A stretch of 64,000 bases of DNA from Bacteroidota bacterium. Lineage in GTDB: Bacteria; Bacteroidota; Bacteroidia; Palsa-948. Where the stretch lies: positions 90,942 to 154,941 of the forward strand of contig PLUL01000030.1 in assembly GCA_003164895.1 (NCBI GenBank), in the 5' to 3' direction. The translations under genes were made by a program, and so were the position numbers. Positions within the stretch are counted from its first letter, which is position 1. Every line of letters starts with the position of its first letter. Shown here piece by piece: positions 14,505 to 42,270 of this stretch. Under the pieces are notes generated by a model, which was not told the origin of the DNA, did no database searches, and saw only the letters and a program-made list of their open reading frames with translations.

Positions 14505-14505
14505 A

Positions 14506-16588: not shown

Positions 16589-17920
16589 TTGTTGCTTTTG
16601 AAATCAACTGGGTCAGATATAAAACTTTACCGCAAACTTTTTCTTATAAGTTCAGCGGCTTATTTTCTTTTTTGGTTTGTGCTTATTAGCGTTGACTCAA
16701 AAGCTTTTGATCCAATTGCTGGCAGAGGGTTGGTTTCATTATCAATTCTCGCTGCATTTACATTAAGCTACACCAATAAATTTTTCAGAAACAATATTGT
16801 CATTGTCGCATATATTCTGTCTTACTTTCTTACATTCTATTACGTTTTTTTACTTGCAAAAAATAATTTTTCTAACATTTATTCCATCGGCATGATGACC
16901 ATCCTTTTTGGAATTGCAGTTGTGTTTAAAGAAAGTATTTCACTATTAATTTATCTCTCCACTTGTTTAATTTCGGTTGGCATCAGTTATTTGTTTCTGG
17001 AAAATCCGGAAGTGAAACCATTTTTATATCTGAGTATTCTGCTTACAACCAGTCTTGTTGCTTATCTTGTTATGAGCATTCGACTAAAAATTCAGGAAGA
17101 ACTAAGTATAAATAATATTCGTTTGGAAGACGCTTACAGAGAAATCAACGAGCAGAAAAAAATAGTTGACATTAAAAATCATGATATTACCGACAGCATC
17201 AATTACGCCCGAAAAATTCAGCAAGCAATAGTTCCTTCAAAAACAGGATTGGAAGAATTTCTTCCCGAATCATTTATCTATTACAGGGTGAAAGATATCG
17301 TAAGCGGAGATTTTTACTGGTATCATAAATACGAAGACGAACTTGTAATTGCAGCCGTTGATTGCACCGGACACGGTGTGCCTGGTGCGCTTGTTTCGAT
17401 GATCAGCGTATCTCTTTTAAAACAAACGGTGGATATACAGGGGATTCATCAGCCGGATAAAATACTTGCAAATCTTCAAAAAGAAATCACATCCTTCTTG
17501 CATCGTGGAAGCAATGACGGAATGGATATCGCACTTTGTTCTGTGAATCTGAATAAAATGACTCTCTCTTTTGCCGGAGCGATGCTGCGAATTATTATGA
17601 TACGCGATGGCGTTGCCAAAGAAATTAAAGGTGATCGTTTTCCCATCAGCCGAAATACAGCTATGAATACAATTTTCACAAATCATACCATCTCTTTAAA
17701 AAAAGGTGACGCATTTTATATGTTTACGGATGGATATTACGACCAGTTTGGCGGAACAAAACATAAAAAATTCATGTACAAAAATCTTGAGAAACTTTTT
17801 CTAAGCATCTACGATCTTGACATGCAAGAGCAAAAATCAATTATTGAAAACACGCACAAAAACTGGAAAGGCGAACTTGAACAGGTGGACGATATTCTTG
17901 TAATTGGATTTAAAGCTTAA
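16589..17920 (+). CDS. Membrane-bound SpoIIE/PP2C-type serine phosphatase
   Basis: This 443-residue protein has an N-terminal half with about six membrane segments (to residue ~170), a short coiled-coil-like linker (SINNIRLEDAYREINEQKK), then a SpoIIE-type PPM phosphatase domain. Metal-site motifs are visible: SGDFYWY, AAVDCTGHGVPGALVSM, DGMDIALC and TDGYYDQFGG. Such proteins usually act in partner-switching signalling, but no anti-sigma partner is adjacent. The start appears to be TTG; no ATG fits upstream of the first membrane segment. Confidence 0.85.
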   Translation: MLLLKSTGSDIKLYRKLFLISSAAYFLFWFVLISVDSKAFDPIAGRGLVSLSILAAFTLSYTNKFFRNNIVIVAYILSYFLTFYYVFLLAKNNFSNIYSIGMMTILFGIAVVFKESISLLIYLSTCLISVGISYLFLENPEVKPFLYLSILLTTSLVAYLVMSIRLKIQEELSINNIRLEDAYREINEQKKIVDIKNHDITDSINYARKIQQAIVPSKTGLEEFLPESFIYYRVKDIVSGDFYWYHKYEDELVIAAVDCTGHGVPGALVSMISVSLLKQTVDIQGIHQPDKILANLQKEITSFLHRGSNDGMDIALCSVNLNKMTLSFAGAMLRIIMIRDGVAKEIKGDRFPISRNTAMNTIFTNHTISLKKGDAFYMFTDGYYDQFGGTKHKKFMYKNLEKLFLSIYDLDMQEQKSIIENTHKNWKGELEQVDDILVIGFKA

Positions 17921-27094: not shown

Positions 27095-27102
27095 CGAATA
27101 TA
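27095..27102 (-). promoter_or_regulatory. TAnnTTCG -7-like element before gmd
   Basis: On the minus strand TATATTCG lies 24 bases before the gmd ATG. It is the same variant as before parB and dapB. It places the gmd promoter within the first ~60 bp of the gap, on the chromosomal side of the island. Confidence 0.4.
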
Positions 27103-27139
27103 CAAATGATTAATTCGCCATTTCGACCAAAGGTAGTAA

Positions 27140-27160
27140 AACCTAAAAACTGTTTAGGTT
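27140..27160. repeat. Inverted repeat near left island end
   Basis: AACCTAAA (27140-27147) and TTTAGGTT (27153-27160) form an 8-bp palindrome around five bases. AACCTAAAAA recurs near the right end at 42469. It could be an integrase core or arm site, or a leftover terminator. Confidence 0.4.
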
Positions 27161-27259
27161 TCAGGCTTTTCATAGGAAAAAAGGTTGGATTGGATTGAAG
27201 GCTTTTAGGGCTTTTAGATGGTTTATGTTACCCCCTTGTTACCCGCAATTTTTCTCAAA

Positions 27260-27324
27260 GGTTCACGAAGGTTCACGAACCAAAACTATGCCTTCCCTTT
27301 TGCGTCTACGCAATTAGGGGAAGG
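27260..27324 (+). promoter_or_regulatory. Integrase leader: 28-bp shared box plus nested hairpin
   Basis: The box (27260-27287) reads GGTTCACGAA, two bases, then TTCACGAACCAAAACT, and recurs before the excisionase-like gene at 30427-30454 with only the two middle bases changed. It is followed by a nested hairpin: CCTTCCC (27291-27297) with GGGAAGG (27318-27324), and inside it TTGCG with CGCAA around TCTA. The integrase ATG is 30 bases further on. The function is inferred to be shared control of integration genes. Confidence 0.6.
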
Positions 27325-27354
27325 TAATGTCAAACAATTTAAAACCTAAAAGCA

Positions 27355-28512
27355 ATGGGAGTTTATCTGAGAGAAAAAAAAGTGAGCGGAGGACAGGTGT
27401 CTTACTATTTAGACATTTATCACAACAAAGCACGTTGGTATGAATTCATCGGGATTCACATCAATAAAACTCATCCTACACCGGAGGACAAGGACAAGAA
27501 ACGGCTCGCGCAGGAAATCAGAGTGAAGCGGGAGAATGAATTAATCGTTCAGGACAACGGATTAATTGACAAAAGCAAGCGCAAAGCAAATTTTATTTCG
27601 TGGTTTGAAAAATTCATCAAGGACAAATCAAAAAATAATACGCACAATGGAACTACGCTTGCCCACCTGAAAGATTACGTGGGCAATCGTCCGTTGCCCT
27701 TCACCGCCATTACTGTTGAATGGATTAAAGGATTTACAAAATATATTCAAGGATTTGTAAGTAACAATACAAGCCGTCTTTACCTGATGAATATGTTTTC
27801 AGCATTGGAGGATGCAGTAAGGCAGGATATTATTATCAAAAACCCATTCCGGCTAATACCGAAGCATGAACGAGTAAAGCAGATGGATACTTACCGCCAT
27901 GCTTATTCGCTTGAGCAGCTTCAGCATTTAGTAGAAACACCATGCAACATTCATCCTCAAATAAAACAAACGTATTTGTTCAGTTGCTTTACAGGACTGC
28001 GTTGGAGCGATGTAAACAAATTGAAATGGTCAGAGGTAATCGTAAAACAAATTGACGGAAACGAAGAACATTTTATTTATTTTGAGCAGAAGAAAACTGA
28101 GGCGATAGAGTATGTTCCTCTTTCCGATCAAGCAGTTGAAATCATCAAACACAGGCAAAGCGAATTGTTGGAGTACAACGATAAAAGCCCTTACGTTTTC
28201 CCATTCATAAAAGAATATGACGAGAAGAATCAACTGATGCACAAACGAGTGAACCGTGCCTTAAAAAAATGGGCTAAGAAGGCAGGATTTGAAATAAAAC
28301 ACATGCACTTTCACTCAGGGCGACACACTTTTGCAACAAACGTACTGGAGAATTGTCCTGATGGTGATTTGTGGACGGTTTCAAAACTGCTCGGTCATAA
28401 AAACATAAACTCCACGCAGATTTACGCCCATGTGCGCGACAAGAAAAAATCAGCAGCAGTAAAGGCACTACCGAAACTGAAAATGAATATGATTTATTCT
28501 AAGGTTGCGTGA
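27355..28512 (+). CDS. Tyrosine recombinase / site-specific integrase
   Basis: This 385-residue protein has an N-terminal arm-binding region, a SAM-like core-binding domain (~100-185) and a C-terminal catalytic domain. Catalytic residues are visible: Arg216 in TGLRWSDV, HSGR at 320-323, LGHKN, and the nucleophile Tyr357 in TQIYAHV. It presumably integrates and excises the island. It is the first gene at the left edge, as is usual for such elements. Confidence 0.93.
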   Translation: MGVYLREKKVSGGQVSYYLDIYHNKARWYEFIGIHINKTHPTPEDKDKKRLAQEIRVKRENELIVQDNGLIDKSKRKANFISWFEKFIKDKSKNNTHNGTTLAHLKDYVGNRPLPFTAITVEWIKGFTKYIQGFVSNNTSRLYLMNMFSALEDAVRQDIIIKNPFRLIPKHERVKQMDTYRHAYSLEQLQHLVETPCNIHPQIKQTYLFSCFTGLRWSDVNKLKWSEVIVKQIDGNEEHFIYFEQKKTEAIEYVPLSDQAVEIIKHRQSELLEYNDKSPYVFPFIKEYDEKNQLMHKRVNRALKKWAKKAGFEIKHMHFHSGRHTFATNVLENCPDGDLWTVSKLLGHKNINSTQIYAHVRDKKKSAAVKALPKLKMNMIYSKVA

Positions 28513-28555
28513 GTTTCTGGTGGTGAGTAGGTTTCTTCGCACTTTCATTTTATTA

Positions 28556-28915
28556 TTATTTTTTCTTGTTGCTTTGTCTTGCGTGATACAATCTGATTTC
28601 TAACACGACCTTCATAAGTGTCAACGCTGTCACCGAACAATGTTTTAATTTTTTCTTTGAATATTTCTTGTCATTAGTTGTAATGTAGCCAATGAGGGCT
28701 TGTCGTATTTGTTCTTCATTGTCCAGTGATTTTTTTTTCTGTCTGTCGGCTTGCACTTTTTTGTCAACGGAGATAGCGAGTTGTCGCAGTTGCTGGTCTG
28801 TGTGCCATGCAAAACTTGCTAAGTTGTAAGCACTGTCCTTGCGTTTTACGAAGTCAATGAGTTGCTGTCTTGTGAGCCCGAAGATAAGTAGTCTTCGAAG
28901 ACCGTTGTTGTTCAT
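28556..28915 (-). CDS. Unknown basic protein of the island
   Basis: This 119-residue lysine-rich protein is probably cytoplasmic, with no signal peptide or membrane segment. No family was recognised. It follows the 59-codon gene by 9 bases and is probably its operon partner, behind the minus-strand structured leader. It converges on the integrase gene. Confidence 0.6.
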   Translation of the reverse strand: MNNNGLRRLLIFGLTRQQLIDFVKRKDSAYNLASFAWHTDQQLRQLAISVDKKVQADRQKKKSLDNEEQIRQALIGYITTNDKKYSKKKLKHCSVTALTLMKVVLEIRLYHARQSNKKK

Positions 28916-28924
28916 TGGAAATGT

Positions 28925-29104
28925 TTAATAAAGCATTATTATTTCCCATTCTAATTTTTCAATTCGCTTTTTATTGTCCTTAATCTTTTTTTCATTCATT
29001 GGTTTTTCATCCATAATCTGTCTTAGTAAATCTTCTATTTCTAATTCTTCATTCTGTCTTTCGTAGAAATGTATTTCTTCTGAAAATTGTCTTATGTGAA
29101 ACAT
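28925..29104 (-). CDS. Small charged protein downstream of structured leader 1
   Basis: This is a 59-residue, highly charged, probably helical protein (many Glu/Lys, likely coiled coil). A longer frame to 29188 exists, but its first 28 codons would run through the structured leader, so I use the ATG at 29104. That start is 52 nt past the leader's closing helix, matching the 50-nt spacing before mod. No family was recognised; an antitoxin or regulatory peptide is possible but unsupported. Confidence 0.5.
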   Translation of the reverse strand: MFHIRQFSEEIHFYERQNEELEIEDLLRQIMDEKPMNEKKIKDNKKRIEKLEWEIIMLY

Positions 29105-29128
29105 CTGAATTGGTTTTGGAGTTTGTAT

Positions 29129-29264
29129 AAAAAAGGGGCGCGGGTTAGTGAACACCTGAGGAGAGGTACCGCTAAGCACCCACAGCACAAATGAACACGC
29201 CCACGCCTTTGCATGAGCGATAGTCCATTCTTGTGCTGAAATAATTTTAGCGGTTTTCTCCTCA
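29129..29264 (-). ncRNA. Structured 5' leader, copy 1 (unknown class)
   Basis: On the minus strand four stacked helices form a rod. P1 is TGAGGAGA (29264-29257) with TCTCCTCA (29164-29157). P2 is ACCGCTAA (29254-29247) with TTAGCGGT (29175-29168). P3 is CAGCACAA (29238-29231) with TTGTGCTG (29190-29183). P4 is GCTCATGC (29218-29211) with GCGTGGGC (29206-29199) around AAAG. The P1/P2 junction is AA on one side and ACC on the other. After P1 come 12 nt, CCCGCGC (29144-29138), CCC and six Ts (29134-29129). Copy 2 at 34101 has the same architecture with different P1-P3 sequences. Confidence 0.75.
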
Positions 29265-29336
29265 AGAATATTCTAAACGCAATATTTTATGTTGTCTTGC
29301 TTGTACTTATATTTTGTTTTTAGTTTGTATTGATGG

Positions 29337-29344
29337 CAAATGTA
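29337..29344 (-). promoter_or_regulatory. TAnnTTTG -7 element of structured leader 1
   Basis: On the minus strand TACATTTG ends exactly 72 nt before P1 of leader 1; the equivalent TATATTCG is also 72 nt before P1 of leader 2. The matching distance supports both as real promoter elements. No -33 TTG was evident. The rest of the gap up to the 299-residue gene at 29516 shows only a further TACTTTTG on the plus strand (29504-29511), 4 bases before that gene's ATG. Confidence 0.5.
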
Positions 29345-29515
29345 TAAAAGTTAATTGGAAAATTTGTCTTTCGGTGAACTGTTAAGTTACCGCTGTCTTT
29401 TAACTTGTTATAGGCGCAATTTATTTACGCCACCCCCTTTGTTTGTCGAATAGGCGTATTAAAATACAAAAAGAAGGCGAGTCTTTTTTTGCAATAGAAA
29501 TATTACTTTTGCCTT

Positions 29516-30415
29516 ATGGAAACAAAACAACGATACGAACTTTACCTCAATCATATTTCTGCTTTGGAATCTTTCAGGTATCCCGATTCTTTTGAAGAAT
29601 ATAAAAATCATGTTGTGGATATGCTGCAATATTCCGACCGATTTGTTTTTGAAGATGCTTTGATGGAGGGGCTGAAAAACGATGAAGCTGTGAAAAGCGT
29701 TCAGCGTGATGAACCGCTAACCATGCAGCATATTTTAACTGCCATCCCGGATTCATTCGTGAATAAAGGCGAGAGCCGGAAAAAAAATAAAGAAGATAAA
29801 GAGCCAACGCCCATTTGGTATAATGTATGGGACGTGTATTATATCACGCCTGACGATGATTTATACTATGACCTGTTCTTTGTTTACAAGATTCGCGGGC
29901 TTGACTTGCTTGAACTGGATGACTTTTTGAGTTACCAGTTAGAAATTTGGTATGAAAATAACCTGAAAAAATTTATCCGCTTCCTTCAACTCATTACTCG
30001 CAAGCATGGAAAAAAACTTTTACCGCCTGAATACATACAAACAATCAGCGAATGGATTGCCGACACGGAAAAACAACCAGCCCTTGAAGGAAAAGAAAAG
30101 CCACAGGCAAAAACTGAAACCAAATTCAAGCGGGATCGGAATGACAACTCAACACGGCTGAATCAGGAACAAACAGCCCTTTTAATTTACTGTCTTCGGG
30201 AAACAAGAATAATCTTGGGGGAACAATACATTGATGAGAAGTATGTAGGTCAGGCATTTTCTATACTCACAGGTTTTAGTGAAAATACTCTCAGCAGAAA
30301 AATAGTTACTTCAACAGTACTGAAACTTGCAAATATTAAAAATACCCAAGCTGTTACTGAAGCATTGAAAAATGTTTTAAAATTCATCGAGGATAAGATA
30401 AAGCCCGAAGAATAA
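29516..30415 (+). CDS. Mobile-element protein of unknown function
   Basis: This 299-residue soluble protein has an acidic, tyrosine-rich middle (VWDVYYITPDDDLYYDLFF) and a helical C-terminal region (LNQEQTALLIYCLRETRII to the end). The C-terminal block resembles helical domains often seen in Bacteroidetes transfer-region proteins such as RteC-like regulators, but the likeness is weak and I do not assign it. It lies upstream of the excisionase-like gene. Confidence 0.65.
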   Translation: METKQRYELYLNHISALESFRYPDSFEEYKNHVVDMLQYSDRFVFEDALMEGLKNDEAVKSVQRDEPLTMQHILTAIPDSFVNKGESRKKNKEDKEPTPIWYNVWDVYYITPDDDLYYDLFFVYKIRGLDLLELDDFLSYQLEIWYENNLKKFIRFLQLITRKHGKKLLPPEYIQTISEWIADTEKQPALEGKEKPQAKTETKFKRDRNDNSTRLNQEQTALLIYCLRETRIILGEQYIDEKYVGQAFSILTGFSENTLSRKIVTSTVLKLANIKNTQAVTEALKNVLKFIEDKIKPEE

Positions 30416-30426
30416 AAAATTTCTAC

Positions 30427-30454
30427 GGTTCACGAACCTTCACGAACCAAAACT
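30427..30454 (+). promoter_or_regulatory. 28-bp box shared with the integrase leader
   Basis: GGTTCACGAA, CC, then TTCACGAACCAAAACT. It matches 27260-27287 at 26 of 28 bases and lies 71 bases before the HTH gene start (67 in the integrase leader). GGTTC-AC-GAACC inside it is a small palindrome, as expected for a protein-binding site. Confidence 0.6.
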
Positions 30455-30477
30455 TCTTTCCTAATCCTTCGTCTATA

Positions 30478-30524
30478 GTGTGAGAACCATGAGCGCGATG
30501 TTGCGCTCATTAAAACCCTCACAC
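30478..30524 (+). promoter_or_regulatory. Nested hairpin abutting the HTH gene start codon
   Basis: The outer stem is GTGTGAG (30478-30484) with CTCACAC (30518-30524). The inner stem is ATGAGCGC (30489-30496) with GCGCTCAT (30503-30510) around GATGTT. The outer stem ends one base before the ATG at 30526. Ribosome access to this start would depend on whether the hairpin is folded. Confidence 0.6.
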
Positions 30525-30525
30525 A

Positions 30526-30867
30526 ATGAGCATACAATTTTTAACCAACATTTCCGAGCAGGAGTTCAAGGAATTCCTCAAGGGTGCGCTGAAAGAGATC
30601 TTAAGCGAGAATCTTAGCGCATTACAACCGCAGTTGCCCGAAATTCTCAACGTACAGCAGGCATCAGAATTCCTGAAGCTGAAAGTCACCACTCTTTACG
30701 AAAAGACTTCGCGCAAGACGATTCCCCATTTAAAAAAGGGAAACAAACTTTATTTCCATCGCTCCGAACTGGAAGCATGGGTAAAGGAAGGCAAAGTCAA
30801 AACCCGTGAAGAGATTGAAGCCGAAGCGATCACCTTCACGCTGAATCATGAAAAGAAAGCCGCTTAA
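30526..30867 (+). CDS. Excisionase-family helix-turn-helix protein
   Basis: This 113-residue protein has a MerR/excisionase-like winged helix at about residues 42-90 (NVQQASEFLKLKVTTLYEK, HLKKGNKLYFHRSELEAW), as in many Bacteroidetes island proteins. It probably assists integrase-driven excision or regulates the island. Its leader shares the 28-bp box with the integrase gene. It is followed at 47 bp by a small acidic gene. Confidence 0.85.
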   Translation: MSIQFLTNISEQEFKEFLKGALKEILSENLSALQPQLPEILNVQQASEFLKLKVTTLYEKTSRKTIPHLKKGNKLYFHRSELEAWVKEGKVKTREEIEAEAITFTLNHEKKAA

Positions 30868-30914
30868 AAAACGAAGCAACCAATCAATGTCTAACAATTA
30901 AAACCCAAAACACA

Positions 30915-31157
30915 ATGAGAAAAGCAGAATTCTTTGTGCCATCCGAAGCGATGGTAGAGTTTGCCGATGCAATGGCAAGCCGAAAACTGGACAACACCGT
31001 TACTGGAACCACCACAGAAGGTGAAATCGTTGTCGAAGTAAACTACGAGCGCGATGAAACCGATGAGGTGGACAAACTGGAAGACGTCCTTGAAAAAATC
31101 CGCGAGCAGTTGGATGAGGAAAAGGACGAAGAGGAAGATGAGGAAAAAGAGAAGTAA
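30915..31157 (+). CDS. Small acidic mobile-element protein
   Basis: This 80-residue protein has an N-terminal half (residues 1-45) that looks like a short alpha/beta unit and a C-terminal half that is a Glu/Asp/Lys-rich helix (DEEKDEEEDEEKEK). No family is assigned. It is probably co-transcribed with the HTH gene and ends at a terminator hairpin. Confidence 0.6.
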   Translation: MRKAEFFVPSEAMVEFADAMASRKLDNTVTGTTTEGEIVVEVNYERDETDEVDKLEDVLEKIREQLDEEKDEEEDEEKEK

Positions 31158-31168
31158 ATGGTAATGAG

Positions 31169-31204
31169 AAGCGGTGAGAGAATTTCTCTTTCACTGCTTT
31201 TTTT
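31169..31204 (+). terminator. Rho-independent terminator after the HTH operon
   Basis: AAGCGGTGA (31169-31177) pairs with TCACTGCTT (31191-31199) with one G-T pair, and an inner GAGA/TCTC extends the stem. A run of seven Ts follows. Confidence 0.75.
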
Positions 31205-31210
31205 AAAATA

Positions 31211-31257
31211 AAAAACAGACATCTGTTTTTGCAAGACATCTAATAGCCATCAGATAA
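31211..31257. repeat. Palindrome plus copy A of a dispersed island repeat
   Basis: AAAAACAGA and TCTGTTTTT (31211-31219, 31222-31230) form a 9-bp palindrome. It is followed by AAGACATCTAATAGCCATCA (31233-31252), a relative of the GACATCT-NN-AGCCGTCT repeat found also at 33930, 39290 and 42284. The ATPase gene starts 21 bases downstream. Confidence 0.45.
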
Positions 31258-31278
31258 ACAAAAATAAATAATAAAAAA

Positions 31279-32745
31279 ATGAGAGACAGAAAATGCACTT
31301 ACTGTGGCGGACCCATTCCGCCTGAAAAAAGAGCTGATTCCATGTATTGTCATAGCACCTGCAAGGCAAAGCATTGGGAAGAAAAGAAAGGCAAGAATAA
31401 AGCCGCTGAAGTAAAACCTACGGTGGAAAAAGAACAACCCAAACTTCAGGTGGAGAGCCCGCTTGAAGGTCTCAGAGGCGTTACTGAAAACAAGCCCCAA
31501 ACAGACAGCTTATCTATGAAAAAGACAGCTGTTAAGCAGGAAATAACGCTTAATTCAGCTATTTCTATTCCTATACAAATTGAAACGCAGGCATACAAAG
31601 ATGCTTTGACAAAAAAAGAAAAAACTGCAAAGGATTTAAGTCGTGTTGAAAATCTGCTTTTACAATGCAGGGATAATATAGCTGAATGGGAAAGTGAGAA
31701 GGCAAAAATCAAACCTATAACAACAGAAAAAATCTTCTCCGCATGGCACTCAGATACCGATTTAGGCAATAAATATTTGGATGAGTTAGGGAAATCCGCT
31801 ATGATTGATTTAAAGAAAAGTGAAATAGAGGAAAAAATTTCATCGCTGAGTAAAACTAAAACAGAACTTGAAAAAATGCTGCCCTTAGCAAAAAAGGCGC
31901 TTGATGAGGTGCAGAAAAAATTAAACTCTGTTCCGCAATATGAGCCGGAGCGAAAATCTTATTTTATGGAAACTGCTAAAAAATTGCTGCTTTCAAAGAA
32001 AACAGAAGAAGAACTAATTCCATCCAAAGAAATGGAAAATCAACCTGAGCAAACAGAAGAAGATCAAACAGAATTTGAAAAAAACGATGCTATAACAGAC
32101 AGCAGAATCCTAAGCGCGCAGCAACTAAAGGATATGGAAATACAAACCTTTAAGTTCAGAGGCAGATGGAGGGAATTTTTCGGAACGCCTGCTACGATTT
32201 TTCACTTAGCAGTTCACGGAAATCCGGGTGAAGGAAAATCTACATTCTGCCTTCAATTTGCAAATTATCTTGCAGAAGATCACGGTAAGGTAATTTACAT
32301 CAGCGGAGAGGAAGGATTCTCACCTACCATCACGAAAAAACTAAATGAAATAAACGTGCATAAAAACCTTTTCATAACCAATTACAAAAAAATGGAGGAG
32401 ATAAAAGAGCATATCAGGAACATCTACAATTTTATTTTTATTGACAGTTTGGATAATATGGGGATTAACCCGGAACAACTGCGTGATCTGCGCGAGCATT
32501 ATCCTAATTCTTCTTTCATAACAATTTCGCAATCCACTAAAAATGGACACATGCGCGGCTCTCAGGAAATCGCTCACGATTGCGATATTGTTGCAAAAGT
32601 TGAAAATGGGTTCGCTATGACAACCAAAAACCGTTTTCATAAAACGGGATTTTTATTCGATGTTTTCCCGAACGACAAAAAAAATAATCTACCAAACAAT
32701 AAAATTGAGAAACCCAAAATGGGAACGCTGAGGAATGTCATATAA
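31279..32745 (+). CDS. Zinc-finger, coiled-coil RecA-like ATPase
   Basis: This 488-residue protein has an N-terminal zinc-finger-like cluster (C6, C9, C24, C28). A long charged region with heptad-like stretches (~90-230) follows. The C-terminal P-loop domain is of the RecA/RadA/DnaB type, with Walker A GNPGEGKS (314-321) and Walker B FIFIDS (Asp389). Such proteins occur on Bacteroidetes islands and may act in replication or recombination of the element. The exact role is unknown. Confidence 0.75.
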   Translation: MRDRKCTYCGGPIPPEKRADSMYCHSTCKAKHWEEKKGKNKAAEVKPTVEKEQPKLQVESPLEGLRGVTENKPQTDSLSMKKTAVKQEITLNSAISIPIQIETQAYKDALTKKEKTAKDLSRVENLLLQCRDNIAEWESEKAKIKPITTEKIFSAWHSDTDLGNKYLDELGKSAMIDLKKSEIEEKISSLSKTKTELEKMLPLAKKALDEVQKKLNSVPQYEPERKSYFMETAKKLLLSKKTEEELIPSKEMENQPEQTEEDQTEFEKNDAITDSRILSAQQLKDMEIQTFKFRGRWREFFGTPATIFHLAVHGNPGEGKSTFCLQFANYLAEDHGKVIYISGEEGFSPTITKKLNEINVHKNLFITNYKKMEEIKEHIRNIYNFIFIDSLDNMGINPEQLRDLREHYPNSSFITISQSTKNGHMRGSQEIAHDCDIVAKVENGFAMTTKNRFHKTGFLFDVFPNDKKNNLPNNKIEKPKMGTLRNVI

Positions 32746-32780
32746 TGGAAATTCGATTCCAAAGACCTGCATCTTTATTC

Positions 32781-32788
32781 TAATTTTG
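32781..32788 (+). promoter_or_regulatory. TAnnTTTG -7 element before the DUF1016 gene
   Basis: TAATTTTG lies 77 bases before the ATG at 32866 in the gap after the ATPase gene. It suggests an independent promoter for the nuclease gene. No -33 TTG was evident. Confidence 0.35.
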
Positions 32789-32865
32789 TATTTTTCAACC
32801 ACATTCCCTCTATGCAAGATTGGTGATAGAAACAGAAAAAACAGTAATTGTATAAAAAACAACAA

Positions 32866-33906
32866 ATGGGAAAACTCAAAAAAATAAATACCGAAGAGCA
32901 ACTTCTAAAAGATGTTGCATTGCTTATTGAGCAAAGTAAACAACATGTTGCACAAACCGTAAATGCCACGCTCACATTTTTGTATTGGAGAATTGGCAAA
33001 CGGATAAATGCAGAAGTGCTTCAAAACAAACGTGCCGAATACGGAAATCAAATTGTCGTGACAGTGTCACGACAATTGGTAGAGAACTACGGCAACGGCT
33101 TTAATGAAAAAAACATACATAGGATGATGCAATTTTCTGAAGTTTTTCCCTATGAAAAAATTGTCGTGACACTGATACGACAATTGAGTTGGTCTCATTT
33201 TGTAGCGTTAATACCACTTAAACAGCCCTTACAGCGCGAGTTTTATGCCGAAATGTGCCGCGTAGAAAAATGGAGTGTACGAACGCTTCGCAAAAAGATA
33301 GATGGTATGCTTTACGAGCGCACCGCCATCAGCAAAAAACCAAAGCGCCTGATAAAACAGGAAATAAAATTGTTGAGGGAAGAAGATAAGCTAACTCCTG
33401 ATTTGGTTTTCCGCGACCCCTATTTTCTCGATTTTCTTGGTCTGAAAAATACATTTAGCGAAAAGAATCTGGAAGATGCGATTTTGAGAGAATTGGAAAA
33501 TTTTATTTTGGAACTTGGACAGGGATTCTCATTTGTTGCACGCCAGAAAAGAATGATTATTGATGGCGATGATTTTAAACTTGATTTGCTTTTTTACCAC
33601 CGCACATTAAAACGCCTTGTGGCTATTGACCTGAAATTGGACAAGTTTAAAGCCGGTTACAAATCGCAAATGGAATTATACCTGCGCTGGCTTGAGAAAA
33701 ACGAAATGCAAGTCGGTGAACAAACACCCATTGGGTTAATACTTTGTGCCGAAGGGAACAAAGAACAAATAGAACTATTGCAGTTAAACAAGGCGGGAAT
33801 TAAAGTAGCCGAATACCTGACCGAACTACCGAGCAAAAAATTACTGCAACAAAAATTGCATCAGGCAATAGAAATTTCAAAAAAACATATTGAGAATAAT
33901 GAGTGA
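32866..33906 (+). CDS. DUF1016 / YhcG-type PDDEXK nuclease-domain protein
   Basis: This 346-residue protein has the N-terminal DUF1016 region (LTFLYWRIGKRIN, RQLSWSHFVALIPL). The C-terminal YhcG PDDEXK-like domain has YFLDFLGL, DDFKLDLLFYHR and AIDLKLDKFK, the last two holding the likely Asp...Asp-x-Lys metal site. YhcG proteins are common in defence islands and type I RM neighbourhoods. I use the ATG at 32866; a TTG at 32848 is also in frame. Two palindromic stretches lie inside the gene. Confidence 0.88.
   Translation: MGKLKKINTEEQLLKDVALLIEQSKQHVAQTVNATLTFLYWRIGKRINAEVLQNKRAEYGNQIVVTVSRQLVENYGNGFNEKNIHRMMQFSEVFPYEKIVVTLIRQLSWSHFVALIPLKQPLQREFYAEMCRVEKWSVRTLRKKIDGMLYERTAISKKPKRLIKQEIKLLREEDKLTPDLVFRDPYFLDFLGLKNTFSEKNLEDAILRELENFILELGQGFSFVARQKRMIIDGDDFKLDLLFYHRTLKRLVAIDLKLDKFKAGYKSQMELYLRWLEKNEMQVGEQTPIGLILCAEGNKEQIELLQLNKAGIKVAEYLTELPSKKLLQQKLHQAIEISKKHIENNE
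33051..33185. repeat. Two intragenic copies of a 27-bp palindrome
   Basis: AATTGTCGTGAC and GTCACGACAATT flank AGT at 33051-33077 (12-bp perfect arms). A second, slightly degenerate copy (AATTGTCGTGAC, ACT, GATACGACAATT) is at 33159-33185. They encode the related peptides IVVTVSRQL and IVVTLIRQL of the DUF1016 protein. Confidence 0.7.
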
Positions 33907-33929
33907 GAGTGTATGAAATCTGATGTTTC

Positions 33930-33959
33930 ATGACATCTTTAGCCGTCTGTATAGATGAA
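33930..33959 (+). repeat. Copy B of the dispersed GACATCT/AGCCGTCT repeat
   Basis: ATGACATCTTTAGCCGTCTG begins at 33930, 24 bases after the DUF1016 stop. It is nearly identical to the reverse complement of part of 42284-42311. It is the first notable element in the 362-bp gap that also holds structured leader 2. Confidence 0.5.
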
Positions 33960-34020
33960 AACTTGAGGTGGGGTAACACATAGTAAATCCGGTAATTCTT
34001 TAAAATAATCCAAAAAACAG

Positions 34021-34028
34021 TATATTCG
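34021..34028 (+). promoter_or_regulatory. TAnnTTCG -7-like element of structured leader 2
   Basis: TATATTCG ends exactly 72 nt before helix P1 of leader 2. The 72-nt stretches of both leaders share an A-rich segment with AAAAACAAAA and end with TTGCGTTWAG near P1. Confidence 0.5.
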
Positions 34029-34100
34029 TACTATAAATCAAAAACAAAAAACTATCGAGTAACAACTAAAGACATATTAAGAATTTGCGTTAAGCCGATT

Positions 34101-34248
34101 CTCGTATCAGAAAACTAGAAAATTTCTAATTGTAAACGAGAGATAGGTGAAACGCTCACGCGCTTGCGTGGGCTTTCCCTTATTTCGTTTACAGGTATTC
34201 TAGTACCTCTGATACGAGTAAGACGAAATGTCCCACGCAGGTTTTTTT
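34101..34248 (+). ncRNA. Structured 5' leader, copy 2, before type III RM (unknown class)
   Basis: P1 is CTCGTATCAGA (34101-34111) with TCTGATACGAG (34208-34218). P2 is ACTAGAA (34114-34120) with TTCTAGT (34198-34204). P3 is TGTAAACGA (34131-34139) with TCGTTTACA (34185-34193). P4 is GCTCACGC (34154-34161) with GCGTGGGC (34166-34173) around GCTT, extended below by GAAA/TTTC and AGG/CCT. The P1/P2 junction is AA versus ACC. After P1 come 13 nt, CCCACGC (34232-34238), AGG and seven Ts (34242-34248). The mod ATG is 50 nt past P1. Confidence 0.8.
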
Positions 34249-34269
34249 GTGGCTAGAAACACAAAAAAA
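34242..34269 (+). promoter_or_regulatory. Hairpin covering the mod start
   Basis: TTTTTTTGTG (34242-34251) and CACAAAAAAA (34260-34269) are a perfect 10-bp inverted repeat around eight bases. The last A is the first base of the mod ATG. Its 5' arm is the leader's U-run, so U-run pairing and translation could be coupled. Confidence 0.55.
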
Positions 34270-36386
34270 TGAGTGCAATAAGTAAGCAAGAAAAAGAATT
34301 AATTGTTGAGCTTCTCCAAAAAGGAGAATCCCTCCCCGAAGATTTAAAATACAAGTTATTCCCTGTAAAGCAGAAGGAATACGAATTAGTATATGGTGGC
34401 AAGATGCGAAAGGAAGACATCCTTGCAAACGAAGATGGAGTGTTCCCCGTTCCACTACAAATAGAAAAAGTTTTTAATGGCGAACGTAAATCATTTAAAG
34501 ATGGTTGGCAGAATATGATTGTGTTCGGAGACAATCTTCAATTTCTGAAAACTATTTATGAAAATAAAGACCCACTGATAAAAAATAAAGTAAAGGGCAA
34601 AGTAAAGTTGATTTATATAGATCCTCCATTTGGTACAGGGGATGAATATGATGGGAACAAGGGTCAAAAAGGGTATTCGGCAAAAACAAAGGGAGCCGAA
34701 TACGTTGAATTTGTTAGGAGAAGATTAATTGTTGCTAAAGAAATATTGTCGGACGATGGAGTAATAATGGTACGTCAAGGATTCAACTTCGGACATTATA
34801 TCAAAATAATACTTGATGATATTTTTGGAAAATCCAGTTTTGTAAATGAAATTATTGTTAATCGAGGTAAACAGCGTTTAGGTGGAACAAAAAAATATAG
34901 TACAGCAACCGATACGGTTTATTTCTATGCAAAGTCAGAAAGTTATTTTTTTCAGGGATTTAAACGAGAACGATATGACAATGAGGCAAAGGGAACCAAT
35001 ATGTTAATGAAAGGAAAGCGAAATCCCCCTGAACGAACATTTTTAGATCCTGATGGAAAAAAGGTAGTGCTTCTTCCGCCACATGATACACATTGGAAAT
35101 TCGTTCAACCGAAAATTGATGAACTGTATCATAAAGGAGTAATGTATTTAGCTCAAAGTCAAAAAGGTTTGCAATCTGGAATTACAAAAAAACTAGGAAA
35201 TAAATTAGTTCCTGTTGATTATGTTCCAAGTTTTAAGTTTGATGATGATAAAACAGTAGATGCTAATTGGACTGATATTCCGGGATACTCACAAGACACA
35301 GGCTATCCAACGGAAAATTCAGAGCAACTTTTACATCGGGTTATTTATACTGCAACAAAAGATGATGATTTAGTGATGGATTTTTTTGGTGGTTCGGGAA
35401 CAACAGCAGGCGTTGCAGAAAAATTAGGCAGGAAATGGATAACCTGCGATATAGGAAAACTTTCCTTTTATACAATTCAAAAGCGATTGCTGAATATCCA
35501 AAATAGCAAAGACCTTGACAGTCCAAAAGTGAAGTATGGCAAACCTGCAAAATCATTCATCACTGTAAATACTGGATATTATGATTTGAAAAAAGTATTT
35601 CAATTAAAGCAAAACGACTATTGCAATTTTGTCAGAAATCTATTTGAAGTAGAAGAAGTAAACAAAAAAATTAATGGAATTAAGATTGATGGTCAAAAGA
35701 AAGATGGTTACTACTGCCAAATATATCCTTACTGGCAATTTAAAGACGCATCCGTTGATGAGGACTACATCGAAGACCTTCATTCGCACATCGGAGCGCG
35801 CGTAGGGAATCGTTTTTACATCGTTGCTCCTGCAAACTATGTTGATTTTGTAAGTGATTATTACGAGGCTGGAAAAGTAAAATATTATTTTCTGAAAGTT
35901 CCATATCACGTTATCAAGGAGCTTCATAAAACAGAATTTAAAAAATTCCGCCAACCTCAAAGCAAAAGCAATGTCAATGACCTTGAAGACGCAGTAGGGT
36001 TTCACTTTATGCGTCAACCAGAAGTAGAAAGCAAATTAAGGGTTGACAAAAATCATGTTGAGCTAATGATTAAAAAATTTGTTTCTGATTTTACAGAACA
36101 GGAAAGCGGGCAGGATATGGCAAATTTTGAATCGCTGGCGATGGTGCTGTTGGATTTAAATTACAACGGCAATGAGTTTGAAATGGATTACTGTTTTTTT
36201 GCTGAAGATTTATTGCCCAAAAAGAACAAGGACGAAAATCAACTTAATGTTTTTTCCGAACAACTGAAACAGCAAAAGGAAATTGTTCTGCCTCCATTCG
36301 CAAAAAAAGAATGCGGAAAAAGTATCATGGTAGTATATGTGGACATCTATGGAAACGAATTCAAAGAAGAATTAAAAATTAAGTAA
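34269..36386 (+). CDS. mod: Type III restriction-modification DNA methyltransferase (Mod)
   Basis: This 705-residue adenine N6 methyltransferase is of the beta class. The catalytic DPPF (residues 118-121) precedes the AdoMet motif DFFGGSGTT (371-379). Regions on either side probably hold target recognition and the Res interface. It supplies specificity and self-protection to the Mod-Res complex. The stop overlaps the res start by one base (TAATG), so the two are translationally coupled. Confidence 0.93.
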   Translation: MSAISKQEKELIVELLQKGESLPEDLKYKLFPVKQKEYELVYGGKMRKEDILANEDGVFPVPLQIEKVFNGERKSFKDGWQNMIVFGDNLQFLKTIYENKDPLIKNKVKGKVKLIYIDPPFGTGDEYDGNKGQKGYSAKTKGAEYVEFVRRRLIVAKEILSDDGVIMVRQGFNFGHYIKIILDDIFGKSSFVNEIIVNRGKQRLGGTKKYSTATDTVYFYAKSESYFFQGFKRERYDNEAKGTNMLMKGKRNPPERTFLDPDGKKVVLLPPHDTHWKFVQPKIDELYHKGVMYLAQSQKGLQSGITKKLGNKLVPVDYVPSFKFDDDKTVDANWTDIPGYSQDTGYPTENSEQLLHRVIYTATKDDDLVMDFFGGSGTTAGVAEKLGRKWITCDIGKLSFYTIQKRLLNIQNSKDLDSPKVKYGKPAKSFITVNTGYYDLKKVFQLKQNDYCNFVRNLFEVEEVNKKINGIKIDGQKKDGYYCQIYPYWQFKDASVDEDYIEDLHSHIGARVGNRFYIVAPANYVDFVSDYYEAGKVKYYFLKVPYHVIKELHKTEFKKFRQPQSKSNVNDLEDAVGFHFMRQPEVESKLRVDKNHVELMIKKFVSDFTEQESGQDMANFESLAMVLLDLNYNGNEFEMDYCFFAEDLLPKKNKDENQLNVFSEQLKQQKEIVLPPFAKKECGKSIMVVYVDIYGNEFKEELKIK

Positions 36387-38962
36387 TGCAGGAAATTAAA
36401 ACATACAAAACAAAAGACCTTGTTCTGCAAGTTTCAAAGACATATAATCCTTTGACATTGAAACTTGATGAGTGGGACAGATTTCTTGATATACTATGCA
36501 ATAATCGTGAATATCAGAAGGAAGCTATCAAGTATGCTATTATTTATATGGCATCCGGCAGATACAAAAGCATTGAAGATTTAATTACAGAGAATTGGAA
36601 GAACAGCGACAGCGCAGAGCTAAGAACCCGCTATAAAGACGCGCGCGAATACATCGGCAACTTGCAATTACCGAATAAATTTAGCGGGAATATTGATTTA
36701 GCAACAGGAACAGGAAAAAGTTATGTGATTTATGGCATCGCACAGGTTATGCTTGGACTTGGTCTTGTGGACAAGGTTCTTGTTCTGTGCCCATCGCTCA
36801 CGATAGAAAAGGGATTGAAAGAAAAATTTGATGACCTAACAAGTGATTCAAAATTAAAGCAAGCAATTCCTCTCGACAGCAAATACAAAAACCCGCGAAT
36901 CATTCAGGCAACCCAAACTATTAAAGACGGAGATATTTGTGTAGAAAATATTCATGCTGTTTATGACAAGACGGGCTCGTCAATCCGAGAAAGTATTAAA
37001 GGAAACGGGCAAAAAGTATTAGTTCTTAATGATGAGGCGCATCATATCTTCAATGAAGTGCAGGGGCGGGACAAGGACATAAAAAAATGGAAAGAATTTT
37101 TAGAGAATCCTGATTACGATTTCAAGTACATTTTAGGATTCACAGGAACGGCTTATATTAATGATGATTATTTCAACGATGTGATTTATCGCTATTCCTT
37201 GCGACAAGCTGTAGATGATAAAATGGTGAAGCTTGTGGAGTATGTGAGCAAAGATGATTCTACCGATACCGGCGAAAAACTTCAGAAGATTTATCACAAC
37301 CATAAACAAAACAAATCATTTTACCATAGAGTAAAACCATTAACTATTCTTATAACTAAGGATATTGTAAATGCAAGACGATTGGCAGAAGATGTTCTTG
37401 ATTTTTTAGTTGAAAAGGAAAAACTTCCCAGAGAAAAAGCTGAAAAAAAAGTTTTAATTGTTACGAGCCATCAAGACCATAAAGCCAATGTTGCGAAACT
37501 CTCATCGGTAGATGATAAAGATAATCCGGTAGAATGGATTGTTTCAGTATCAATGCTTACTGAGGGATGGGATGTAAAAAACGTTTTTCAAATTGTTCCC
37601 TGGGAAGATCGGGCATTTAATTCAAAACTACTTATAGCGCAGGTTTTGGGAAGAGGTTTACGAATTCCTCCTGAATACCAAACACCGCAGCCAAAGGTTA
37701 CAGTGTTCAATCACGATGCGTGGAGCAGAAACATAAAAGGATTAGTTGATGAAATTCTTGAAATAGAAATGAAACTTCAAAGTTCTGTTCTTACTAAAGG
37801 AACAAGGGCATCACACCATTTTGACCTCTACACTATTCTCTACGAGAAAAAACAAAAGGAAAAACTCTCGAAGAAATCACAAAAGATTTTTGATTACACA
37901 AAAGGATATATAGAACTCATTGCACAGGTAGAGGAATCGGATAAGGATACTGAATACACCGACCTACACGGGAATGTCAGGGAACAAAATACAACCATTG
38001 AGTATAATACATTTACCATCGATGAAGTTGTAAATAAATTATACGATGAATTCAAAGTGAGGGAATGGGAAGGGAAGACATTAAAGCTACCCGAAGGCGA
38101 GTACACAAAAAATAATCTACCTCCCAAAAATGAAATTAAGAAAATCATTAGGGAATCAATGAACAAAGTCGGAATCAAGGGCGACAGGTTGGTTGTGAAA
38201 AATAAATACAAGATAGAATCCATGTTCAGCACTTTGCTCAGGAAGAAGAATAAAACCGTTGTAAACGAGCGAATAGCAACTGAACCTGAAAAACTTTCTA
38301 CTAAACAAATCGAAAAAGAATCAATAGCAGTAGGGAATTTAAGACATCATTCAACAGTTTTTTATACTGAAGATTTTGAAAGTGAGCTTCCAAAAGAAAC
38401 CTCAGAAATATTGCAACAAGTGATTGATGATGATACATTTTTGAAAAGCTCCTCAAAATCCGTTAATCCGCACTTGTTTAAAACTCCACTTGATATTGTT
38501 TTTACAAAATCAGACCCTGAACGAAGGTTTATTGAAATGATTTGCAAAAAAGAGAATGCTGAGAAGATTGATAGTTGGGTAAAATCGCGTGATGGAGGTT
38601 TTTACCATATTGAATACACTATCACCACTATCGCAGGCAGACACACTAAGCAGCAGAGCTACAATCCTGACTTCTTCATCAAAATAGTTTCAGGAAAAAC
38701 AACATACATTATTGTTGTGGAAATTAAAATTGACAATGATGATTCACAAGAAAACCGGGCAAAACTACGTTATGCAAAACAACATTTTGTAGACCTGAAC
38801 GATGAACTGAAATTAAAGGGAGTAAAACAACAATACCTATTTCATTTTCTAAGTCCCGAAAACTATACTGAATTTTTTGATTACCTCAAAAATGGAGAAT
38901 TGATTAAAGGAAATTTCAGAAGTGAGTTGGAAGATTTATTAGAAAAGGTTGAACAGGAATAA
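36386..38962 (+). CDS. res: Type III restriction enzyme helicase/endonuclease (Res)
   Basis: This 858-residue SF2 translocase has Walker A GTGKS (108-112), DEAH (216-219), a motif VI region (LIAQVLGRGLRIP), and a C-terminal PD-ExK nuclease (Pro-Asp at 761-762, E779-I-K781). It cuts DNA after ATP-driven communication between inverted Mod sites. All key residues are intact, so the system looks functional. Confidence 0.93.
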   Translation: MQEIKTYKTKDLVLQVSKTYNPLTLKLDEWDRFLDILCNNREYQKEAIKYAIIYMASGRYKSIEDLITENWKNSDSAELRTRYKDAREYIGNLQLPNKFSGNIDLATGTGKSYVIYGIAQVMLGLGLVDKVLVLCPSLTIEKGLKEKFDDLTSDSKLKQAIPLDSKYKNPRIIQATQTIKDGDICVENIHAVYDKTGSSIRESIKGNGQKVLVLNDEAHHIFNEVQGRDKDIKKWKEFLENPDYDFKYILGFTGTAYINDDYFNDVIYRYSLRQAVDDKMVKLVEYVSKDDSTDTGEKLQKIYHNHKQNKSFYHRVKPLTILITKDIVNARRLAEDVLDFLVEKEKLPREKAEKKVLIVTSHQDHKANVAKLSSVDDKDNPVEWIVSVSMLTEGWDVKNVFQIVPWEDRAFNSKLLIAQVLGRGLRIPPEYQTPQPKVTVFNHDAWSRNIKGLVDEILEIEMKLQSSVLTKGTRASHHFDLYTILYEKKQKEKLSKKSQKIFDYTKGYIELIAQVEESDKDTEYTDLHGNVREQNTTIEYNTFTIDEVVNKLYDEFKVREWEGKTLKLPEGEYTKNNLPPKNEIKKIIRESMNKVGIKGDRLVVKNKYKIESMFSTLLRKKNKTVVNERIATEPEKLSTKQIEKESIAVGNLRHHSTVFYTEDFESELPKETSEILQQVIDDDTFLKSSSKSVNPHLFKTPLDIVFTKSDPERRFIEMICKKENAEKIDSWVKSRDGGFYHIEYTITTIAGRHTKQQSYNPDFFIKIVSGKTTYIIVVEIKIDNDDSQENRAKLRYAKQHFVDLNDELKLKGVKQQYLFHFLSPENYTEFFDYLKNGELIKGNFRSELEDLLEKVEQE

Positions 38963-38971
38963 AAAAAATAA

Positions 38972-39388
38972 ATGCCCAAAGAATATAAACGCCTAACACT
39001 GGAGAAGCTCAGAAGTTACCCCAAACTTAAACATCTGACTGATGAAGAAGCTGAAGAAGCAATTGATGCGTTGGAAAAATTTTCTGTGATTGCGTACGAT
39101 TCTTATATGAGATTAGTTCGGTTAGGAGTTGCCGATGAAAACGGAGCTATTCCTCCTGATTGGGAAAATCATCCAGCTTTTTTGGCTGATGAAGAAAGAG
39201 CGCGTAGAGATGGATTGGAAAGGAACTTAAATAAAATAGGCAGAAAAAAAGCTATTTCGAGAGCTAAAAATAACCGTCTGAAAGCTGAAAAGTCGTCTAA
39301 ACAGCCGTCTGTAGCAGTCAAATTATGCACTGCCGTACCTGTAAGCAAGTTTTTACTACGCACGCATAATGAACAATCATCTACATAG
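38972..39388 (+). CDS. Third gene of the type III RM operon, unknown
   Basis: This 138-residue protein starts 9 bp after res. Residues 1-85 form a plausible acidic/helical domain (KLKHLTDEEAEEAIDALEKF), followed by a basic stretch (RKKAISRAKNNRLKAEK). The last ~35 codons overlap copy D of the dispersed CGTCT repeat (39271-39312), so the natural C-terminus may have been replaced by insertion of the IS21-type element. No family is recognised. Confidence 0.55.
   Translation: MPKEYKRLTLEKLRSYPKLKHLTDEEAEEAIDALEKFSVIAYDSYMRLVRLGVADENGAIPPDWENHPAFLADEERARRDGLERNLNKIGRKKAISRAKNNRLKAEKSSKQPSVAVKLCTAVPVSKFLLRTHNEQSST
39271..39315 (+). repeat. Copy D of the CGTCT repeat cluster
   Basis: Three CCGTCTG/TCGTCTA units lie at 39274, 39292 and 39304 inside the 3' end of the 138-residue gene. 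The part AAGTCGTCT with AGCCGTCTGTA matches copies B and C. It could be the left end of the IS21-like element, opposite to 42271-42315. Confidence 0.4.
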
Positions 39389-39490
39389 AATTCTCTACTA
39401 ATCTCTTCATAGCCTTCCTTCTTTTAACTATACGGATTCTTCCATAATCTAAATTGGAAAGTTTGCGCGCACTCGTGTACAGCGCGACCT

Positions 39491-39514
39491 TTATCGGGCA
39501 ATGAAGCCCGATAA
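39491..39514 (+). terminator. Hairpin after the RM operon and before the small HTH gene
   Basis: TTATCGGGC (39491-39499) pairs with GCCCGATAA (39506-39514) around AATGAA. The following bases are A-rich, then ATTTTTTT. It may end the RM transcript, or act as a leader hairpin for the gene at 39546, as seen before the excisionase-like gene. Confidence 0.5.
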
Positions 39515-39545
39515 AAAATCAATATTTTTTTAAAATTTATTCACC

Positions 39546-39764
39546 ATGAAACAAAACCTACAAGACAAACTGGAAATCCGACTGCGCGCCTATTCAATAA
39601 ATGAAGTGGCTGAACTTTATCAATTCAGCTTAAAAAGTATGAAGACATGGCTCAGCCATTATGCAAAAGAAATCGGACCGAGAATGGGACACTATTATAC
39701 GCCCAAACAGATGAAAATAATTTTTGATTGCATTGGAAAACCTGAAATAGTTCCGTTGAAGTAA
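39546..39764 (+). CDS. Small helix-turn-helix protein
   Basis: This 72-residue protein has a helix-turn-helix-like stretch (SINEVAELYQFSLKSMKTWLSHY) and the tail GHYYTPKQMKIIFDCIGKP, like MerR-type DNA-binding domains. It may regulate the adjacent transposase genes or be left over from the island. It lies 123 bp before istA. Confidence 0.65.
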   Translation: MKQNLQDKLEIRLRAYSINEVAELYQFSLKSMKTWLSHYAKEIGPRMGHYYTPKQMKIIFDCIGKPEIVPLK

Positions 39765-39887
39765 ATCTTTTTTCAGCTAAGAAAAACTTTTTTCATTCTT
39801 TTCTTTCCTTTTTCTCCCTTTTCGTGACTTTTACGGATTCGGGTATTTTTTCTTGTTGTTTATTCGCACCCGCAAAAAATTAATAGC

Positions 39888-41414
39888 ATGTGCAACATAA
39901 GACATATTCTTCGCCTACATACTCAGAGCCAAACCACCTCTGAAATAATTATGCAGACAGGAATTCCGCGAAAGGTTCTGAGAAAATGTATTCGGGAATT
40001 TAATGAGAGCGGATTGACTTTTGCAGAAATAAATGAGTTAACCGATACAGACCTCGCAGAACTTTTTACCAAACCCGAAGAACCACTCCTCAGCGAAAAA
40101 ATGCAAAAGCTATACGATCTCTTTCCTAAAATAGACAAGGAACTAAGACGCAAAGGAGTGACAAGAAAACTCTTGTGGCGTGAATACATCACAAAATATC
40201 CCGATGGTGCTAGCAGACAGGAATTCAATAAGCAGTTTGCAAAATGGAAAAGACGAATAATTCCTATTATGCACAGGGAACATATAGAAGGAGATAAATT
40301 GTTTATTGATTATGCAGGGAAAAAATTATCCATAATTGATGCAGATACTGGAAAGGCTAAACCAATAGAAGTATTCGTAGCCATTCTCGGAGCAAGCCAA
40401 CTTACCTATGTGGAAGCGGTGATGACGCAGCAGAAAGAAGATTTTATTCCTGCCTGTGAAAACGCTTTGCACTATTTCGGTGGCGCGCCTGCTGCTATTG
40501 TTCCCGATAATTTAAAGTCAGCCGTTACAAAAAGTGATAAGTATGAACCAAGAATCAATGAAACATTTGCTGATTTTGCTGAACATTATAATACAACCAT
40601 TCTTCCCGCGCGCGCCAGTAAGCCAACAGACAAAGCATTGGTAGAAATTGCAATCAACATTATTTATACCCGCATTTATGCAAAGTTGCGCGACATGAAA
40701 TTTTATTTGCTTGATGAATTAAATAATAAAATACTGATTGAATTGGAGGAACACAACAATGAGGGATTAAGCGGAAAAAATTATAGCCGAAGACAAAAGT
40801 TTGAAGAACTGGAGCGGGCAGCACTTCTTCCGCTTCCTGCATTGCGATATGAATTCAAAAAACAATTTTATGCGACTGTTTTGCGGCACGGTCATGTTTC
40901 GCTGAGTGCAGATCAACATTTTTACAGCGTTCCATATCAATTCATAGGAAAAAAAGTTAAAGGGATGTACACTCGGTACAATGTGGAAATATTTTATGAA
41001 TATGAACGAATTGCTCTGCATAAAAGAAAAATGTATAGCGCGTATAAATACACTACCGATAAGGAACACTTGCCAGCCGCGCACCGTTTTGTGTATGAAC
41101 TTACATCTGAGCGCCTGCTAATGCAAGCAGACGCAATTCATAAAGACGTACGGCTGTACATTTCAAAAATTATTAATAAGAAACATCATAAGGAGCAAGC
41201 ATATAAAGTTTGTTTAGGTATCCTTAGCTTCGTTCCGAAATTCGGCAACGATAGATTAATTAAAGCATGTCAGCGCGCGTTGGATTATGGCATCTATAAT
41301 TACAAAACCATCAAGAAAATTTTAGAGAGCGGATTGGAAAAACAAGATGATAGCAATGAAAATCTTCAAATGCCCCAGCATGAAAATATCAGGGGAAAAG
41401 ATTACTACCAATAA
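39888..41414 (+). CDS. istA: IS21-family transposase IstA
   Basis: This 508-residue protein has an N-terminal HTH region (TTSEIIMQTGIPRKVLRKCI). The DDE integrase core has Asp in LFIDYAGKKL, Asp in AIVPDNLKSAV, and Glu in DKALVEIAINI. A C-terminal Mu-type domain follows (YSVPYQFIGKKV). The frame is intact. It pairs with istB 56 bp downstream. Confidence 0.92.
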   Translation: MCNIRHILRLHTQSQTTSEIIMQTGIPRKVLRKCIREFNESGLTFAEINELTDTDLAELFTKPEEPLLSEKMQKLYDLFPKIDKELRRKGVTRKLLWREYITKYPDGASRQEFNKQFAKWKRRIIPIMHREHIEGDKLFIDYAGKKLSIIDADTGKAKPIEVFVAILGASQLTYVEAVMTQQKEDFIPACENALHYFGGAPAAIVPDNLKSAVTKSDKYEPRINETFADFAEHYNTTILPARASKPTDKALVEIAINIIYTRIYAKLRDMKFYLLDELNNKILIELEEHNNEGLSGKNYSRRQKFEELERAALLPLPALRYEFKKQFYATVLRHGHVSLSADQHFYSVPYQFIGKKVKGMYTRYNVEIFYEYERIALHKRKMYSAYKYTTDKEHLPAAHRFVYELTSERLLMQADAIHKDVRLYISKIINKKHHKEQAYKVCLGILSFVPKFGNDRLIKACQRALDYGIYNYKTIKKILESGLEKQDDSNENLQMPQHENIRGKDYYQ

Positions 41415-41470
41415 AAAAATACAAACCCAAATAAAAACAAACAAATAAACAACAACAAAAACAAATCACC

Positions 41471-42247: not shown

Positions 42248-42270
42248 GATTTTTTTTCATACGCTCTCAT

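Follow-up and report, generated by a model that had tools for sequence, protein, structure and literature searches.

In the Bacteroidota element CTnDOT, a regulator-like gene (rteC), an operator and an excision gene (exc) follow one another in this order. The insertion sequences IS10 and IS50 are shielded by fold-back protection, in which an inverted repeat lies over the transposase promoter and only read-through RNA hides the start codon. For few Bacteroidota elements is it known how integrase and excisionase stay silent and are then expressed together. RdfS of ICEMlSymR7A activates intS, and binds and represses its own promoter (PMC11963761). Directionality factors act on operators made of direct repeats spaced by one helix turn, as described for Apl of phage 186 (PMC7498355), and BldC, which belongs to the same fold group, also uses operators of direct repeats with a spacing of about one turn. 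XisF4 of the Pf prophage activates its own gene (PMC7379572). Here, we describe an integrative island of 15.5 kb (27101-42595) within a 64,000-nt stretch of a Bacteroidota genome, hereafter the window, to which all coordinates refer. The leader of the island's integrase gene and that of a gene coding for an excisionase-family protein with a helix-turn-helix (HTH) domain share a box of tandem 10-bp repeats, which in related elements lies at a fixed distance from a predicted promoter element and is followed by a conserved hairpin.

A tandem box in two leaders

The box before the integrase gene (box 1, GGTTCACGAA-GG-TTCACGAACCAAAACT, 27260-27287) and that before the HTH gene (box 2, GGTTCACGAA-CC-TTCACGAACCAAAACT, 30427-30454) are identical in 26 of 28 bases and end 67 and 71 bases 5' of the respective ATG codons (27355 and 30526), as had been claimed in a first-pass annotation of the window. 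Both are tandem direct repeats with a 10-bp period (27260-27281 and 30427-30448, plus strand); the repeat of the HTH-gene box is perfect in 10 of 10 positions (TTCACGAACC-TTCACGAACC), and several integrase boxes have a possible weaker third repeat upstream. When up to three mismatches are allowed, the 22-bp core is found twice in the window (zero copies expected; none in 100 shuffles) and three times across the 3.25-Mb genome. The third genomic copy belongs to the leader of a further integrase gene from this family, and the box is not scattered over random sites.

The leaders of related genes in same-genus genomes and other Bacteroidota metagenome-assembled genomes were compared, 12 for the integrase (window, L045, L046, L047, L048 and L060-L066) and eight for the HTH gene (window, L045, L046, L049, L060, L062, L063 and L066). 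The relatives' integrases are 62-74% identical to that of the window. The box is present in all 12 integrase leaders and all eight HTH leaders, the most divergent copy of the set matching 12 of 20 consensus positions. In L045, the HTH gene and the gene for a 299-aa protein that otherwise precedes it are separated by the insertion of a different gene, and the box remains with the HTH gene. A search of 395 genomes of the class for the core (up to two mismatches) gave leaders of this island family within the window's genus, a single integrase leader from a different family (G278; the same leader as L063) and five other places. A search of viral contigs returned a single match, which was discarded as it lies inside an unrelated coding region, and no plasmid relatives of the integrase above 60% identity were found.

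The similar box-to-ATG distance pointed out in the first-pass annotation holds for the window but not as a conserved quantity, as it varies from 55 to 94 bp across the leaders; conserved instead is the distance from the box to a predicted -7 element. In 18 of 20 leaders, an octamer within one mismatch of TAnnTTTG begins precisely 23 bp beyond the box, as against 1 match in 1,215 positions at other offsets; the 23-bp offset was first spotted by eye and then counted in the same leaders, which are not independent of one another. Such an octamer is found in 11 of the 12 integrase leaders (TATAATTG, TATTATTG, TAATTTTA, TAGCCTTG) and in seven of the eight HTH leaders (AATCTTTG, GATCTTTG, CATCTTTG, TACATTTG, CACATTTG, AATTTTTG). 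Since the spacers of different HTH leaders are only 17-78% identical, close common descent alone hardly explains a motif at one offset. The primary sigma factor of Bacteroidota has TAnnTTTG as its -7 element (sigma-ABfr consensus) (PMC7366714); a -33 motif was not seen in the leaders. The corresponding positions in the window are 27305-27312 in the integrase leader (TCTACGCA) and 30472-30479 in the HTH leader (TCTATAGT, TAnnTTTG-like in relatives), both on the plus strand.

Because the box-to--7 spacing is fixed while the box-to-ATG distance varies, the box has the appearance of a tandem operator with 10-bp units, placed upstream of two promoters. It would span about -59 to -38 relative to the predicted start, a layout typical of activator sites that, as judged from the sequence, would favour activation over repression. 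The shared box had been suggested to reflect either one regulator or one RNA signal acting on both genes. The former is well supported by the presence of the box in every leader, its fixed spacing and its restricted distribution, whereas the latter is unsupported, because transcription is predicted to start downstream of the box and no sequence is shared between the hairpins that follow.

Self-complementary sequence over the predicted promoters

Each window leader contains a two-step hairpin of different sequence, in line with the first-pass annotation, at 27289-27326 before the integrase gene (plus strand; fold z = -5.2) and at 30478-30524 before the HTH gene (plus strand; z = -5.4), the latter ending one base before the ATG. 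Compared with dinucleotide shuffles, z ranges from -2.3 to -5.2 in nine integrase leaders and from -3.4 to -7.4 in seven HTH leaders; the hairpins of the L063, L065 and L066 integrase leaders and of the L063 HTH leader are weak or not significant. When positions were anchored on the box and not on the structure, and the L060 integrase and L063 HTH leaders were left out, each set had 11 positions with compensatory, two-sided pair changes. The sequence of the hairpins is thus free to change while their base pairing persists, a pattern indicative of single-strand pairing rather than of a protein operator.

The two sets of hairpins are placed differently. In the integrase leaders, the predicted -7 element falls within the loop or the inner end of the stem (the loop and inner stem in the window; L060 differs), and in most cases about 28-31 bases separate the 3' arm from the ATG. 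In the HTH leaders, the 5' arm starts at or near -7 and the 3' arm ends at or beside the ATG, the exceptions being L063 and L060, in the latter of which the outer stem starts further upstream. As the 5' arm overlaps the predicted -7 region, an RNA started about 5 bases after -7 would lose much of this arm. The predicted native 5' untranslated regions (UTRs) of the HTH genes measure 19-25 nt in six of eight leaders, in agreement with the commonest length of 23 nt in B. thetaiotaomicron (PMC7366714). Opening the start region of the HTH gene is predicted to cost 5.1-16.1 kcal/mol in read-through RNA versus 0.5-5.4 kcal/mol in the predicted native RNA, and the cost is lower in the native form in eight of eight leaders. 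The hairpins are real and form a second layer, one that overlaps the predicted promoter.

A proposed excision switch and its alternatives

The HTH gene (30526-30867, plus strand) codes for a predicted winged-helix protein of the HTH_17/excisionase family (Pfam HTH_17, 3e-13; TIGR01764 over cut-off; weak excisionase PHROG matches), and the part of the protein predicted to contact DNA varies little, as expected for a conserved box. We infer that it is the first candidate for binding the box. The second candidate would be the 299-aa protein encoded upstream (29516-30415, plus strand), a member of a family with a conserved C-terminal domain (LNQEQTALLIYCL...) whose gene precedes the HTH gene in related islands. 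The 299-aa protein has no Pfam (to E = 10), NCBIfam or PHROG match, and its structural model has no structural match. A relation to RteC (PF09357), at which the gene order and a loose C-terminal similarity had hinted, was rejected (hhalign probability 0.05%; no Pfam match to E = 10).

We hypothesize that the box is a tandem operator, its two 10-bp direct repeats spaced by roughly one helical turn, located at about -38 to -59 of the promoters of both the integrase gene and the excisionase-like HTH gene. The repeats would be bound head-to-tail by one DNA-binding protein that the island itself encodes, most probably the HTH_17 winged-helix protein, which would activate the integrase gene and its own gene together; at box 1, ~150 bp inside the left island end, the same bound protein could double as directionality factor. 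Each promoter would in addition be overlapped by self-complementary sequence. HTH RNA from its own promoter would lack most of the 5' arm and keep the start codon free, whereas RNA read through from the upstream gene would form the whole hairpin and hide the start codon, a fold-back protection similar to that of IS10 and IS50. On balance, we lean slightly towards this model, in which one island protein, probably the HTH protein, controls both promoters via the box. We offer only tentatively, as a possibility on the doubtful side, a broader version, in which a compact cis-module (tandem operator, 23 bp, -7 element and self-complementary arms) at both genes would let one element-encoded activator run a positive-feedback excision switch, such that incoming transcription from the host or a neighbour could not express the excisionase.

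A number of observations weigh against this model. In the window's own element, neither leader has a TAnnTTTG-like octamer at the expected offset (5 and 4 mismatches), and none with at most one mismatch is found near that place; where relatives have the octamer, the window leaders carry TCTA followed by CGCA or TAGT, with CGTCTA common to both at the same offset. The window element has either a deviating -7 element in both promoters or lost promoter strength. Co-divergence of the two boxes within elements is weak (p = 0.09). The best structural match of the HTH protein model is indeed the RdfS excisionase, but at an E-value of 0.027 and with a low-confidence model (mean pLDDT 59.5). With regard to fold-back protection, the window HTH gene ranks second of 36 window genes in start-codon hiding and is no outlier. 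Hiding of the integrase start codon was considered and rejected, as the opening energy does not change consistently and the hairpin ends short of the ATG. Lastly, the right end of the island is without a box, so that a role in directionality rests on one side only.

Other readings of the box have to be weighed against these points. The box-binding regulator could be the 299-aa protein, activating or repressing both promoters while the HTH protein serves recombination only. The order of 299-aa gene, box and HTH gene is kept in most full elements and recalls rteC-exc of CTnDOT, and the C-terminal domain is the conserved part of this protein. However, its lack of a detectable relation to RteC, of any family and of a structural match, together with the little-varying DNA-contacting part of the HTH protein, which fits the conserved box, makes this reading rather unlikely. 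The view of the box as a repressor's operator, or as a site of integrase autoregulation, draws on RdfS, which represses its own promoter while activating intS, in a system where integrase autorepression is also known (PMC11963761). One would more often expect a repressor to bind over the core promoter, whereas the box ends 23 bp before -7 in leaders lacking a -33 motif, the usual activator-dependent layout, and we consider a repressor operator improbable. It is very improbable, in our judgement, that the box is in essence a recombination site, of the arm type or for a directionality factor, and that its position before two genes is secondary. Box 1 does lie close to the left end, adjoining GTTAC repeats, and tandem repeats are typical of directionality-factor sites; yet box 2 is 3.2 kb inside the element and far from the ends, the right ends have no box, and the fixed -7 spacing in both leaders points to transcription.

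For the hairpins, the alternative is that they are ordinary 5' UTR structures of the native transcript, resembling an attenuator or a riboswitch, and give no protection from read-through. Their strong and conserved pairing would fit such a role. Nevertheless, no Rfam match was found in the window, no terminator T-run follows the hairpin, and the 5' arm lies over or ahead of the predicted -7 element, so that much of it would be missing from the native RNA; we therefore regard this alternative as unlikely.

The island and its known counterparts

The island is bounded by 9-bp direct repeats, TACAAATGA, at 27101-27109 (left end, the probable crossover region) and 42587-42595 (right end), with inverted TCGCCATT just inside. 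A sibling genome (G006 contig) with an empty site matches the window up to 27107, where homology stops within the left repeat, and again from 42645, the two flanks lying ~60 bp apart in the sibling. In another same-genus genome (L104, G003:C125), a different segment of 3.8 kb (~13676-17462) occupies the same chromosomal place, which suggests that the site may be an insertion hotspot. The GTTACCCCCTTGTTACC repeats at 27227-27243 (plus strand), kept in all relatives' integrase leaders, are probable integrase arm sites, to which binding is presumed, and GTTAC/GTAAC repeats without a box are present at the right end (42477-42522). GTTAC repeats, which resemble integrase arm sites, are thus found at both element ends, as in the mini-elements L064 and L065. 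The box was consequently rejected as an att core or end repeat, the ends being the TACAAATGA repeats with their GTTAC arms. The mini-elements (L064, ~5730-9020; L065, ~5735-7250) keep the integrase (truncated in L065), the box and both ends, have terminal inverted repeats of roughly 30-38 bp, and are without the HTH gene and cargo. GTTAC repeats also precede the start codon of distant Bacteroidota integrases (L072-L077), and in several of these leaders an inverted GTTACTT...AAGTAAC surrounds the probable promoter, perhaps for integrase autoregulation.

The tyrosine integrase gene (27355-28512, plus strand; Pfam Arm-DNA-bind_5, Phage_int_SAM_5 and Phage_integrase) is located near one end of the island. 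Between it and the 299-aa gene lie two small minus-strand open frames of 119 and 87 aa (28556-29188) with no Pfam match, and downstream of the HTH gene a gene for an 80-aa acidic protein (30915-31157, plus strand) is conserved in relatives. The island further codes for a RadA-like ATPase, and its cargo (32848-42247) comprises a YhcG-type nuclease (DUF1016), a DNA methylase with an adjoining helicase-like protein, which we read as a type III restriction-modification system, and an IS21-like insertion (39888-42247). In place of this cargo, the second island of the same genome (L045) carries, at 5929-9341, two adjacent genes resembling an AbiE-type toxin-antitoxin pair and a type I-like DNA methylase, as read from the translations.

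The box and its predicted promoters are a real, conserved regulatory module. They offer a concrete candidate operator with fixed promoter geometry, conserved across elements of several Bacteroidota genomes, with the hairpins as a possible second protective layer. Coordination of its own and the int promoter by an excisionase-type protein is already known in kind; the promoter-overlapping, co-varying hairpins are the less familiar part, as judged from a non-exhaustive set of open-access papers. CTnDOT, also from Bacteroidota, has its regulator-like gene, operator and excision gene in the same order as the module, although the regulator-like gene here is not detectably RteC. As in IS10 and IS50, an inverted repeat would overlap the promoter and the start codon would be hidden only in read-through RNA; in contrast, the protected gene would be an excisionase-like gene inside the island and not the integrase with its start codon. 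Apl is likewise a directionality factor that doubles as a transcription regulator, but as a repressor of its promoters, and its sites each comprise five to seven repeats, compared with the two, or perhaps three, found here upstream of the promoters (PMC7498355). XisF4 and AlpA-type proteins resemble the HTH protein as excisionases that activate their own gene, as would be the case here; they belong to a different phylum, and XisF4 is not known to have a shared box at int (PMC7379572). A further likeness is to RdfS, a winged-helix excisionase of an integrative element that binds the att region upstream of the integrase gene. It differs in repressing its own promoter, and a single shared box with fixed -7 spacing is not described for it (PMC11963761); our element, from Bacteroidota, would rely on a binding predicted from sequence. 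Since RdfS activates intS and binds its own promoter, and XisF4 activates itself, the proposed circuit has close precedents.

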